Assembly: GCF_032878975.1 (NCBI RefSeq)
Contig: NZ_CP043875.1
Coordinates: 1,666,370-1,730,369, forward strand
Source: Methanoplanus sp. FWC-SCC4
GTDB taxonomy: Archaea > Halobacteriota > Methanomicrobia > Methanomicrobiales > Methanomicrobiaceae
Direction of reading: 5' to 3'
Length of the DNA: 64,000 nucleotides
The position numbers were made by a program, and so were the translations under genes. Under the pieces are notes generated by a model that made no database searches, was not told the origin of the DNA, and saw only the letters and a list, made by a program, of their open reading frames with translations. Every line of letters starts with the position of its first letter. The first letter of the stretch is position 1. Below are positions 56,164 to 62,039 of this stretch, piece after piece.

Positions 56164-56931
56164 TCATCCTAATATCATTTTCCGGGCAGATTTTAAAAAT
56201 TTCGCAGGCATATCTTCATCCAGTCTCCATGTGATATTCATAGGTCGACTTCCAGTATGGCTCACATATCTGGCAGTTCCAATACAAATAAAGGGCTGTG
56301 CACGATTATTTACTTCTTTAAACTCCCTTACAAAGAGAAGAATCCTTGCTCCATTAGAGTCATGATTAATGTACCTAATTCCAGTAGGAGAATTTTCAGA
56401 GGTTGTACTCTGAGACTGCCAATGGAAAAGAGTCTCATTTACTGCAAAATCCTCGTACATTGTTGAAGGTGAATAGTGCTTCTCTGTCTTATTAAGAGTG
56501 ATAAAAAATACATCCAGATTTTTATCTTTCAAATGTATGACACCTTCACGCTGTCCATGAGAAGGCATATTTAAAAGAGTATAGTGATCAAGTGCAGAAA
56601 ATATCTGATTTCTTGCATAACTGCAATGCAAGAAAAGAGGCGTTTTAAATCCTAAATTAAGAGGTTTTTCAACAAAATCTATGTTCTGATATTTGTAATT
56701 TAAAATCTCTAATATTTCATCCTTCACTGCTTCATTCGCGAAAATCGTTTGGAAGATATCTGAAACTTTATTATAATTCTGGATAGGAGAATTGTAAAGG
56801 GAATAGTAAAGCATTGTAAGCATCTTTTGGTCATAATCTGAGATTTCCTCTAAACAAACATCTCCAGAATTTCTAAGTAAATTAATTATGAATTTTATAA
56901 ATTCAGCAGAGTCTATATCTATAACTCTCAA
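56164..56931 (-). pseudogene. DUF3427 domain, probable remnant of a PLD/DEAD-box helicase
   Basis: 255 residues from TTG 56931; the open frame ends at a stop about 40 nt further upstream. The last 150 residues match DUF3427: CSYARNQIFSALDHYTLLNM, REGVIHLKDKNLDVFFITLN, YSPSTMYEDFAVNETLFHWQSQ, TGIRYINHDSNGARILLFVR and GTARYVSHTGSRPMNITWRL. In bacteria and archaea this domain normally ends a roughly 1000-residue protein with a PLD nuclease and a DEAD-box helicase linked to defence or mobile DNA. Neither is present upstream, so this is either a stand-alone DUF3427 protein or, more likely, a truncated gene. It is AT-rich. Confidence 0.7.
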
Positions 56932-57516
56932 TGCGGATTCAGAAATCCAAGTCCAAATCTCTAAAATTACCTAAATCGGGCACTTCTATCATTCTGTTTT
57001 TTTCTCTCAAATATCAAAAAACTTGTGCGCCCAACAGACACCAAAGCTTCAAAAAAAATTATTCAAAAATATTAATCAAGGATGTTCACCAGCCGCTGCA
57101 TCGCTTCACTCAGCAGCGGACGGTTCACTTTTTTTTACCGGTTGACTATAATTCTGCTACGCCAGAAACAGCCTCGTTTCACTCGCCTGTCCCAGGCTGC
57201 AAACAAGCAGCCTCCACCTATTGCCTGAAGGCAAAAGGTTCCGGTTGCCGGCCATACACTCCGCTTCCGGGGATGGACAAGCATCCCCCCGCTCCGTGAT
57301 GACCTAATCCTCCCGCCGCTGTTCGCGGCTCCTCCCTCCGGGCAGTGGATATGAAAGATTCTATTCCCCGTCCGAGGTCGGGCGGGCGGGTTATTGCTGC
57401 CGGACCGAAAGGAACGGCAGCCGGCTCAGCGCCAGCGTTGCAGCTGTAAGACATGATTTTCCCACACTAACGGCCCGCAATTCTCTTTAGATATCCGGCA
57501 GGGAAAAGGCAAAATT
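56932..57516. other. Non-coding GC-rich region holding left hairpin element
   Basis: The left inverted copy of the multi-hairpin element covers 57081-57341 of this stretch. The rest is a transition from AT-rich to GC-rich DNA with no supportable frame; frames that cross it in several phases are artefacts of hairpin DNA. Confidence 0.6.
57081..57341 (+). repeat. Left copy of the inverted multi-hairpin element
   Basis: It carries in order: hairpin CCGCTGC/GCAGCGG (57093-57119), GCCTG/CAGGC (57185-57197), TTGCC/GGCAA (57221-57234), GGGGATG/CATCCCC (57269-57288), GCCGC/GCGGC (57315-57329). The same series occurs inverted at 58938-59345. Confidence 0.8.
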
Positions 57517-58353
57517 TCAGGGAGAGGGTCTTCCCATCTCCAGAAAATCCACTGCCCGTTGTGCATCACCGGCTGCACTGATAAGATCACGGGCTGATCC
57601 TTCCCTGATATGCTCAAGCCATCCGGCAATATAAGAAGCCGAATTCATCCGGACAGGATCTGTATCAATACCGCACATGGCACAAAGAAACGCTGATCCC
57701 ATCTCCGCAGTCAGCTCCTCGCGGCTGTATGTTTCACTTCCAAACATCGACGTCTTACAAATTCCCGACCGTTTAAGCCTTGATGAATGGCCGGTCCAGT
57801 GCGTCAGCTCATGAAAATACGCTGCATAATAATCCTCCCGTGACCTGAACATATCCATAGGGGGCATTCTGACAATATCCTTATCCGGACTGTATGACGG
57901 GCTACCGATTCCGTTTAGATGCTTATTTCTTTTAATAATCTCCTCACAGGATACAACCGGCGTTATTTCTGCGACAGCCTCAGGCTCTATCCCTTCACAT
58001 TGGGAAAAGTTAAACACCGGATAATAACGGACAATAGGCCGTTCCCTCTCGGCCATAATTATTACATCATCGCCCTGATCGTTAACCGTCTTTTTTGTAT
58101 CGGTCTTTGACCAGAAGAGAACAATTCCCGATGCCTTCTCCCCTTTCCTCACACTTCCGCCGGCTTCTCTTATCTGCCTGAAAGTTCCCCAATGTGTATG
58201 CCCTGCAAGAAGAAGGCGGTTTATTCCCCTGTATTCCTTCCCTGTCAGAATATTAACAGGATTCATATCCTGCCACGTCTTCTGCCACGGGACAACGCCG
58301 GATTCAAGCTGCTTTATGATCCGGTCCTGCACAATCTCATAAACAGAAGGCAT
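57517..58353 (-). CDS. ardC: ArdC-like antirestriction / ssDNA-binding protein with metallopeptidase domain
   Basis: 278 residues. YEIVQDRIIKQLESGVVPWQKTW, LTGKEYRGINRLLLAGH and GGSVRKGEKASGIVLFW are the N-terminal ArdC ssDNA-binding domain; YYAAYFHELTHWTGHSSRLK carries the HExxH zinc site of the C-terminal metallopeptidase domain and YSREELTAEMGSAFLCAMCG supplies the third ligand. Plasmid ArdC protects incoming single-stranded DNA from restriction during conjugation. The ATG overlaps the stop of the small upstream gene (TAATG), with AGGAGG just before, so the two are coupled. It is a marker of mobile DNA. Confidence 0.88.
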   Translation of the reverse strand: MPSVYEIVQDRIIKQLESGVVPWQKTWQDMNPVNILTGKEYRGINRLLLAGHTHWGTFRQIREAGGSVRKGEKASGIVLFWSKTDTKKTVNDQGDDVIIMAERERPIVRYYPVFNFSQCEGIEPEAVAEITPVVSCEEIIKRNKHLNGIGSPSYSPDKDIVRMPPMDMFRSREDYYAAYFHELTHWTGHSSRLKRSGICKTSMFGSETYSREELTAEMGSAFLCAMCGIDTDPVRMNSASYIAGWLEHIREGSARDLISAAGDAQRAVDFLEMGRPSP

Positions 58354-58520
58354 TATTCAGACCTCCTGCTGACAGCTGCAAAACGCCGGCCGCCTTCATA
58401 GGGGGATCTTAATAAAACAATATTCCGGCAGCGGGGATCTTCCTGCTCTGCTTCCGTTGCGTTTATCTCTCTGTACTCTAAACCAGTTAATGAGGTGGCG
58501 GGCTTTCTGTTTGGCGACAT
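58353..58520 (-). CDS. 55-residue protein coupled to ardC
   Basis: MSPNRKPATSLTGLEYREIN, then AEQEDPRCRNIVLLRSPYEG and SRRSE. The stop TAA overlaps the ardC ATG by one base, and the ardC Shine-Dalgarno (AGGAGG) lies inside its last codons. It is basic and has no domain I know; it may be a leader peptide that sets the level of ArdC or an accessory protein. Confidence 0.6.
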   Translation of the reverse strand: MSPNRKPATSLTGLEYREINATEAEQEDPRCRNIVLLRSPYEGGRRFAAVSRRSE

Positions 58521-58681
58521 GATTAGAACACCACCTCAACCGGTTCTTCCACGTTCAAATTATTTCTGAACATATCAACCAGTTCCTTAATTTTTCAGGA
58601 GAGCGAAGGCGCCGGACTTTTCCCGACAGCTTACACTTCCCTACATATATATTTATTTTAAAAGTATTTAATTATTTATAC

Positions 58682-58706
58682 TTGGTATATATTCAGTATA
58701 TACCAA
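58682..58706. promoter_or_regulatory. 10-bp inverted repeat (likely operator) before DUF2080 gene
   Basis: TTGGTATATA and TATATACCAA with a 5-nt spacer, centred 49 nt before ATG 58743 and probably overlapping the TATA element. The tatataccaa half also has TATA character. It is a good site for a dimeric repressor controlling this gene and perhaps the divergent ardC unit. Confidence 0.55.
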
Positions 58707-58742
58707 AGTAAGTTATTAATTACATAATGCCGCATAACTATT

Positions 58743-58898
58743 ATGGATAAAATAGAAATCACTGTTTCCGGTTATGAAGTCAGGGAAAAAACAGCTACAA
58801 AATCCGGCAACAGCTGCCATGTTCTACTTCCGCAGGACTGGATCGGCAAGCGGGTTAAGATCATCCTTCTTGATCCGGTCGAAGATAAAAAGGAATAA
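58743..58898 (+). CDS. DUF2080 family, transposon-associated protein
   Basis: 51 residues, below usual length limits. MDKIEIT-like start, VSGYEVREKTATKSGNSCHV LLPQDWIGKRVKIILLDPVE: the TKSGNS...LP..WIG(K)(R/K)VK block is the hallmark of DUF2080, an AbrB-like swapped-hairpin fold often found near archaeal transposases. It may regulate its own module through the inverted repeat just upstream. Confidence 0.85.
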   Translation: MDKIEITVSGYEVREKTATKSGNSCHVLLPQDWIGKRVKIILLDPVEDKKE

Positions 58899-59642
58899 CA
58901 GAGGATACTCACGAATAATCCCAATCACTCTCACTGCCCCTGGGGGAGGAGCCGCGAACAGCGGCGGGAGGGGATGAGCATGTCGGAGCGTGGGGATGCT
59001 CGTCCATCCCCGGAAGCGGAGAGAATGGTCCGCACAGCGCCAGCGTAACAATTAAAGACGGCCTGTTCAAGGCGGGTGGGTTGTCAAAGACGAAAGGCCG
59101 GACAATCATAATAAAAAATGCCTGCCGGAATTCCTAAAGATATTACCGGGCCGGAAATATATCACAGGACAATAAACAATTCAGCCTGAGCTTTCTGCAT
59201 GATGCAGTAAGCGGAGGCGGTGGCAGACAGCCGGAAGCAGGCGAGTGAAGCGAGTCTGATTCGGGCGACACAGATAATTTTAACCTGAAAAAACAGCGAA
59301 GCGCCCGCTGCTGAGTTGAGCGATGCAGCGGTGGGTGAGCGTCTGCAAATACGACAGACCATTAAGTAAAGCATAAATAGACCCCCTTTTAGGCGAAAAT
59401 CTCAGGAATCGCGACCTTCACAGAAGCCCTGTATTCCACGATCTCCACTTTAGCCAGTATAAACATCGTCTGAAAATACGGGGCAATACAACGTCATTAT
59501 ATCTCAATAATGAGGGCGCCAATCGGCCTAATGTTGGTAAATTAGACTTTTTTTGAAATCACATTATTTGTATCTAAAATCTGGCGAAAAATACTTGAAT
59601 AAAGGGATATTCACTGTCTTTTTTAAAGGACTAATTTGTTCA
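58899..59642. other. Non-coding region holding right hairpin element
   Basis: The right inverted copy covers 58938-59345. The remaining 300 nt up to the HEPN-like gene has mixed composition and no supportable frame. Confidence 0.6.
58938..59345 (-). repeat. Right copy of the inverted multi-hairpin element
   Basis: It carries GCCGC/GCGGC (58951-58965), GGGGATG/CATCCCC (58992-59011), CTGCA/TGCAG (59195-59207) and CCGCTGC/GCAGCGG (59305-59331), in the mirror order of the left copy; an insertion of about 150 nt separates two blocks. About 85-90% of bases agree over the 84-nt inner block. Confidence 0.8.
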
Positions 59643-61101: not shown

Positions 61102-61785
61102 TCAGAACAGCGCTGCAACACCGTCCGCCCAGGTCTCAACCTTGTCACGGATTGCATCATCAGTGTAGGAGCTCAGCCTTACATTTGTCCTGTTTATGGA
61201 CACATAATAAATCTCACCATTCGGGTCCATACATTTCAGAGTATGGGAATATGTGTCATGCTCTCTGTCCCTTACACAATCGCCACCGACAGCATCAGCA
61301 AGAGCAGTGTCTGCAAGAACAGCTGTAATCGCAGCATTATATGCATGGACAGCCGGTGCCTTAACAGACATTGATCCCACGGACTTTGCCTCATCATCCT
61401 CAAAGATGAATTTTGCAGTATATCCCTGTTTAGAAGTTGATACCCCCGCAATGTTCATTCCGTTGGACACATAACCCACACATCCAAACGGGTTATTTAC
61501 AACCACATCCTGAACAATTGAATCAAAGGTTTCAATATCCGGAATTGGATTTTCAAGTTTCCTTGTTGCAGTTTTTGTGTTGTTGGTCTCTATAAAGTCA
61601 GCCATTTCTTCATCATCTCCGACAAAGGTTTCGTTTTCCAAAACGAAATCCGCCTTTTCAAAGGTGCATGCATCCGCGTCCTTTAAACCGGCGTCAGTTG
61701 CCTGGATACATCCGGAAGTATTACAGACAATAATAATTATGATCAACAATAATATTAACTTGACTTTATGAGTGGTAATTTTCAT
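61102..61785 (-). CDS. Lipoprotein of unknown function
   Basis: 227 residues. Signal VKLILLLIIIIIVCNTSGC with lipobox Cys 26. The mature part is acidic, Ala/Asp-rich, with two Cys pairs that could form disulfides (FGCVGYVS and GGDCVRDREH, KCMDPNGE). The C-terminus reads DDAIRDKVETWADGVAALF. I do not recognise it. It may be a host-surface protein made by the element. Confidence 0.65.
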   Translation of the reverse strand: MKITTHKVKLILLLIIIIIVCNTSGCIQATDAGLKDADACTFEKADFVLENETFVGDDEEMADFIETNNTKTATRKLENPIPDIETFDSIVQDVVVNNPFGCVGYVSNGMNIAGVSTSKQGYTAKFIFEDDEAKSVGSMSVKAPAVHAYNAAITAVLADTALADAVGGDCVRDREHDTYSHTLKCMDPNGEIYYVSINRTNVRLSSYTDDAIRDKVETWADGVAALF

Positions 61786-61802
61786 ATATAGAGGTGTTAT
61801 TC

Positions 61803-62039
61803 ATGGTCAGTAATAAAACCAACAGAGACATGATTATCGAAACAAACAGGGATGTTAAGTGGATTTGCAAAACACTTTCCGAACTGAAAGACTCAATTGA
61901 GGATCATGAGGGAAGAATAAGGGTGCTTGAGGAGCACAAGGCTGAAGCAAAAGGGTGCGAGGGAAAGATTGCCGCTGGTCTTGGAGCCGGAGCCGGCGGA
62001 GCAGTCGCCGTTATTTTAAAAATATTCAGCGGTTTTTAG
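61803..62039 (+). CDS. Coiled-coil plus transmembrane protein, holin/XhlA-like
   Basis: 78 residues from ATG 61803; AGAGGTG is 9 nt upstream. A heptad-like helix (NRDVKWICKTLSELKDSIED HEGRIRVLEEHKAEAKG) is followed by a glycine-rich membrane helix (AAGLGAGAGGAVAVILKIF). The layout matches phage XhlA/holin-associated proteins. It is divergent from the 61785 lipoprotein by only 17 nt and overlaps the next gene by 4 bp. Confidence 0.7.
   Translation: MVSNKTNRDMIIETNRDVKWICKTLSELKDSIEDHEGRIRVLEEHKAEAKGCEGKIAAGLGAGAGGAVAVILKIFSGF

Follow-up and report, generated by a model that had tools for sequence, protein, structure and literature searches.

The window, as the whole 64,000-nt stretch of Methanoplanus sp. 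FWC-SCC4 DNA analyzed here is called, contains a 2.26-kb unit in which ardC and a DUF2080 gene, transcribed divergently, lie between two GC-rich arms in AT-rich surroundings. The layout recurs around ardC in other methanogens but not around the 96 bacterial or viral ardC genes compared, which suggests a small mobile cassette, so far undescribed, with foldable DNA ends. Tentatively, and with a nearly even chance of this being correct, the arms are interpreted as the hairpin termini of an anti-restriction cassette that is non-autonomous and relies on an enzyme supplied in trans. The interpretation is put forward because inverted pairs bracket ardC, the arrangement recurs in other genomes, the stems covary and cassettes diverge at an exact module end; we infer that the cassette is mobile. 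Anti-restriction genes are known chiefly from bacterial conjugative plasmids and phages. If the interpretation is correct, the recurrence of such a self-contained cassette would reveal a way in which counter-defense genes spread among archaea, and the cassette could serve as a defined substrate in the search for a hairpin-recognizing recombinase of archaea.

The product of ardC (57517-58353, minus strand) belongs to the ArdC family, as both PF18818 (9.6e-32) and PF08401 (5.6e-26) matched above cut-off in the Pfam and NCBIfam searches, and it combines an ssDNA-binding N-domain with a zincin-like metallopeptidase domain whose HELTH motif is intact. The solved ArdC structures nearest to it are 6i89 and 6sna (E about 5e-36). 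The latter represents ArdC of plasmid R388, which binds ssDNA and counters restriction (PMC7213743) and is a clear homologue over residues 4-273, including both domains and the zinc motif; in methanogens, by contrast, the gene lies on the chromosome, in a cassette flanked by hairpin arms. A single-stranded phase in the life of the cassette would fit the ssDNA binding and anti-restriction activity of ArdC. Plasmid ArdC homologues were less than 60% identical, and in an ArdC tree, in which the window ArdC forms a long branch, armed and unarmed loci were not cleanly separated. Scans of the genome and viral collections with single ArdC sequences gave no matches, whereas an alignment query did retrieve homologues.

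The DUF2080 gene (58743-58898, plus strand) matched PF09853 (5.9e-6) and the NCBIfam model NF033496 (5.9e-16), labeled "DUF2080 family transposase-associated protein", and its product is a putative small DNA-binding partner of ardC; a published survey (PMC10440598) validated DUF2080 as a domain of the antitoxin type. At other loci the partner gene encodes an excisionase-like HTH protein instead, and the partner at locus L158 is filed under the excisionase family. A 55-aa ORF from the ORF list (58353-58520, minus strand) overlaps the start of ardC and is a candidate gene, possibly translated together with ardC; the ardC genes of relatives, where gene calls are ORF-based, are likewise preceded by short ORFs. 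Between the arms, where the only genes are ardC, DUF2080 and unassigned short ORFs, no transposase, no recombinase and no Cas1 with PolB was found.

The first-pass annotation had described two mirror copies of a long hairpin element enclosing both genes. The enclosure is real, as the gene matches and three collinear inverted pairs from a repeat search show (57246-57342/58938-59034, 97 nt, 84%; 57153-57199/59228-59274, 47 nt, 77%; 57081-57136/59288-59343, 56 nt, 82%), and the mirror relation holds for these blocks but not for the whole arms, the right arm carrying about 150 nt between its inner and outer halves, including motif C, that the left arm lacks at that place. The left arm (57081-57347, minus strand), which comprises the inverted pairs and a covariance-model match, and the right arm (58932-59343, plus strand), which begins 34 nt past the DUF2080 stop, each face away from the center and lie 3' of the adjoining gene. 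In the outward direction, both arms present core A, core B and then hairpins E, F and G. Core A has the form CACTGCCC-hairpin-AGGAG-hairpin-GGGAGG in either arm (ACTGCCC-hairpin-AGGAG-hairpin-GGGAGG on the left), and it is followed by core B, a hairpin with the apical stem GGGGATG/CATCCCC. A covariance model of core A-B, termed R1 and built from six source sequences, matched the left core (57253-57347, minus strand) with 100.5 bits and the right core (58932-59027, plus strand) with 105.7 bits, both cores being among its sources.

Sequence and alignment place hairpin E at 57216-57238 on the left (minus strand), with TTGCC-TGAA-GGCAA at 57221-57234, and at 59186-59216 on the right (plus strand), with CTGCA-TGA-TGCAG at 59195-59207, so that the exchange of two base pairs first noticed here was correct in both coordinates and bases. 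The TTGCC/GGCAA allele was also found in a solo arm of genome G013, and the right arm of G007 carries CTGCT/AGCAG. Alignment and folding delimit the hairpin F region (of the CAGGC..GCTG type) at 57165-57199 (left, minus strand) and 59228-59274 (right, plus strand). The outer hairpin G, CCGCTGC/GCAGCGG, lies at 57093-57119 on the left (minus strand; sequence and alignment) and at 59304-59343 on the right (plus strand; inverted repeat and alignment); this stem, GGGGATG/CATCCCC and GCCGC/GCGGC, all listed at first pass, could be read in both arms. Further inside the left arm, inner hairpins (57362-57440, unstranded) end in motif C (CTCAGCGCCAGCGT, 57425-57438), and in the right arm motif C (GCACAGCGCCAGCGT) with its hairpin region (59032-59110, plus strand) forms a direct repeat with 57424-57438. 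Copies of motif C are thus located at 59033-59046 and about 57424, and others were found in G034, G054, G064, G074, G079 and G083. Fold predictions for the two arms as ssDNA were more stable than dinucleotide shuffles, although modestly so (z of -2.3 and -2.0); fold energy is by itself insufficient for the case, which is carried by the comparison of homologues.

The methanogen loci fetched contained 20 inverted pairs with a length of at least 50 nt and a spacing of 0.8-4.5 kb, and 18 of these enclosed a full ardC, compared with 3.35 expected under random placement within the same loci. The pairs are not independent, since a single locus may contribute two or three segments and L126 is an ortholog of L130. 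Many loci were fetched for ardC or R1, a bias that within-locus placement corrects only partly. Arms were present at 13 of the 23 distinct methanogen ardC loci (L154, which repeats L054, was counted once), and no bracketed ardC was found at the 96 bacterial or viral loci, from 151, that had 2.5 kb on both sides. Wherever both arms were recognized, their orientation, judged by eye at the loci read, was outward.

A plain DNA search identified relatives of the right arm in 5 other genomes of 60, and the R1 search found homologues in 19 of the 199 genomes of the order; when 394 genomes sampled from the phylum were scanned, R1 had no match beyond the order. The FWC-SCC4 genome itself carries only the one arm pair, in single copy. 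Genome G007 has the complete arrangement, its ArdC sharing 62% identity with that of the window, and R1 matches form inverted pairs around ardC at the Methanofollis loci L126 (G064), L129 and L130 (the last two in G079, identified by contig match as a Methanofollis MAG); L126 and L129 have the cassette and arms in common and nothing outside. Inverted arms were also present at the f5-family ardC loci L059, L060, L135 and L136 and at the Methanoculleus locus L158. At L171, from a Methanotrichaceae MAG (ArdC 37%), ardC is bracketed by arms of unrelated sequence, and the bracket layout is therefore wider than the arm sequence. Genome G008 has three ardC cassettes, about 94% identical, in different contexts; in the G008 and G001 cassettes a hairpin array accompanies only the ardC side, which counts against the cassette reading.

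Also counting against it, motifs of the R1 type adjoin genes other than ardC (L127, L133, L138 and L141). At Methanofollis-type loci, DNA methyltransferase genes adjoin the hairpin motif at L127 (5342-6400), L133 (judged from shared sequence) and L126 (8550-9518), suggesting anti-restriction islands. At L138 (5600-5800; f6 family), a 22-nt direct repeat, ATCCGCACTGTCCGGTACAACA, was observed on both sides of the core motif.

The exact module end was found in Methanoculleus. The arms of L158 (Methanoculleus sp. FWC-SCC1) are 294 nt long and 89% identical, and the inner 165 nt were also found solo. Complete copies of this 165-nt module end in ...GGGCATGCTCGCGGCTG (...GGCTG) or a close variant, with unrelated sequence beyond, and the match between L157 and L160 (91.7% identical over 2.5 kb) stops exactly at the module end. 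Up to 10 matches to the module were found in one genome, solo copies included. Genome G008 carries a variant of the terminal hairpin, as does the FWC-SCC4 genome, where it adjoins an ardC relic (L065). The units are regarded as modular, rather than as having one fixed terminal repeat, because the outer tip of the window type differs; the fact that the outermost arm sequences differ between groups counts against the cassette reading. In a classical terminal inverted repeat, the tip should be the most conserved part. The unit is bracketed by inverted repeats around a cassette without a transposase, as in non-autonomous transposons and MITEs, but the arms are hairpin arrays, the tips are not conserved and visual inspection of the cassette ends that were read revealed no target-site duplication. 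Several near-identical armed copies within one genome were not found, which also counts against the cassette reading.

The Y1 transposase moves IS200/IS605 and REP elements. Its domain, PF01797, was present in G011, G034, G074, G079 and G513 and absent from the FWC-SCC4 genome, G007, G049, G054, G064, G036, G142, G165 and G510-G512, and IS200/REP mobilization was rejected on the ground that most carrier genomes tested lack this enzyme. The modules do resemble REP/BIME sequences and REPINs, which are moved by Y1/RAYT, in being imperfect palindromes, solo and clustered, with one exact end; they differ in their numbers (at most 10 matches), in their long arrays and in that most carriers lack a Y1 transposase. 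In integron cassettes, a gene is likewise followed by a foldable site (attC) whose end is the cassette junction, but here two sites face each other in inverted orientation, whereas integron sites follow one another in a direct array, and no attC boxes were recognized by eye. Genome G059 was considered as an empty site for the G064 locus and rejected, as the cassette is absent and the tRNA intact but other genes are inserted. Beside the G064 cassette, a 15-nt fragment (L126 5390-5405) matches, by eye, the 3' end of that tRNA (intact in G059, L153 5410-5500), as would be left by an integrative element.

Under the cassette interpretation, each arm would be an array of imperfect palindromic DNA modules that points outward and forms the cassette end. 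When the region becomes single-stranded or extrudes cruciforms, the modules may fold and be recognized by a putative recombinase or transposase acting in trans, and the cassette, or a module alone, would then join new sites without a long target duplication. A broader proposal is speculative and rather unlikely to be correct in full: methanogens would harbor a mobile-cassette system, hitherto undescribed, whose own putative recombinase acts on folded single-stranded modules, and the ssDNA-binding ArdC would be the cargo and might also assist the transfer.

The covariation that had been guessed from a single hairpin holds across families. In an alignment of 35 hits that was fitted to the structure, 95.6% of cells pair, both sides have changed in 13 of 17 pairs, and the covariation score is 0.217, compared with 0.055 +/- 0.008 for shuffled alignments and no more than 0.028 for slid structures; a MAFFT alignment not fitted to the structure gave 0.213, versus 0.104 (slid versions at most 0.078). 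Stems are swapped between homologues as whole blocks, with P1 occurring as CCCC/GGGG, CCCGTCCC/GGGGCGGG or GAAGATCT/AGATCTTC and P2 as GCCGC/GCGGC, GGCACC/GGTGCC or GCGACCC/GGGTTGT. If selection acted on an RNA strand, G-U mismatches should far outnumber A-C mismatches; the stem cells contained 5 G-U versus 6 A-C, and 14 versus 9, the cells being few and the counts not decisive. The sense strand folds more stably in 24 of 26 motifs, but this asymmetry was rejected as proof of an RNA, as shuffles are nearly equal (mean z -0.5) and it mainly reflects base composition. While the covariation itself stands, its initial reading as a sign of selection on RNA or folded DNA needs to be qualified, as template switching in replication creates and repairs hairpins and yields multi-base compensatory changes without RNA selection (PMC8794818). 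The mismatch counts do not establish selection on an RNA strand, and folded DNA or repair by template switching is an explanation of at least equal merit. Because there is no G-U excess, the strand asymmetry follows composition and template switching is available as a source, we read the covariation as the probable upkeep of DNA palindromes, through selection or a mutational mechanism, although with small counts that are not decisive. The element may serve as a worked case that compensatory changes should not be read as RNA before G-U and A-C mismatches have been compared.

Template switching is also central to the first alternative, in which REP- or MITE-like palindrome clusters build up passively in low-constraint islands, render no service to ardC and have their stems kept perfect by this process. 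The occurrence of modules both solo and in arrays, the block-wise swap of CCCC/GGGG for GAAGATCT/AGATCTTC in P1 and the ability of template switching to make such changes all agree with passive build-up, but it predicts neither the excess of bracketed ardC genes nor the consistent outward orientation, and we consider it unlikely.

A second alternative, which we judge to be improbable, is that the arms are establishment regulatory sequences, foldable DNA or RNA that controls anti-restriction genes on cell entry, as proposed for EGeRS1 of the pLS20 family. EGeRS1, the nearest published parallel, is 420-750 bp long and located upstream of ardC and four other operons in copies 62-95% identical (PMC8708921); compared by description, it shares with the arms a GC-rich, multi-inverted-repeat region of several hundred bp, associated with ardC and present in more than one diverged copy, and the methyltransferase genes at L127 and L133 directly follow motif A-B. 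However, EGeRS1 sits on Bacillus plasmids immediately upstream of the RBS and operon, whereas the arms are mirror-imaged and lie 3' of ardC and its divergent partner, and many (the right arms of the window and of L126 among them) have no co-oriented gene beyond. The arms are not filed as EGeRS1 because they follow genes where EGeRS1 precedes an operon; by analogy, they could work in a related way.

That the arms are a structured RNA, whether an ncRNA of its own or the 3' segment of the transcripts of ardC and DUF2080, is also improbable, since the strong covariation, the G-U-rich P2 stem of the f5 family and the position of motif A, which at L019, L055, L143 and in the window starts about 22-34 nt past the DUF2080 stop, are countered by the mismatch counts, the shuffle-like stability gap between strands and the lack of a match in Rfam. 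In Rfam 15, the element had no match at gathering or relaxed thresholds (best DnaX, E 1.1, below gathering) and the only match in the window was a tRNA, so that, for the libraries searched, it still belongs to no named family. Of the two identities offered by the first-pass annotation, a structured RNA is thus not favored, and the folded end of a mobile element has become better supported through the recurrent bracketing of ardC and the exact Methanoculleus module end.

Several further features were observed around the cassette. To the right of the right arm, a dispersed repeat (59363-59505) consists of a promoter-like GTAAAGCNTAAATA followed by about 60 conserved nt (CACAGAAGCCCTGTATTCCACGATCT..CATCGTCTGAAAA); it has two copies in the FWC-SCC4 genome, four in G013 and no fewer than 13 in each of G001 and G008, and further copies lie, for example, at L069, L068, L074, L071 and L080. 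No Rfam match and no conserved fold were found for this repeat, which may be a small RNA present in many copies or else regulatory DNA shared between loci. The left arm is directly adjoined on its left (56164-56931, minus strand) by what remains of the C-terminus of a methyl-directed restriction enzyme of type IV, which matches PADLOC mREase_IV at positions 696-935 of 945 and contains DUF3427. The relic of a second ardC (L065 6423-6800, at about C1:312.5 kb in the FWC-SCC4 genome) has a different 3' hairpin array, of the G008 kind. Finally, two genes at 61102-62039, one lipoprotein-like and the other a small gene of coiled-coil/membrane type, recur together near the ardC loci of several genomes (L016, L020, L052 and L065), a second pair in the FWC-SCC4 genome included.
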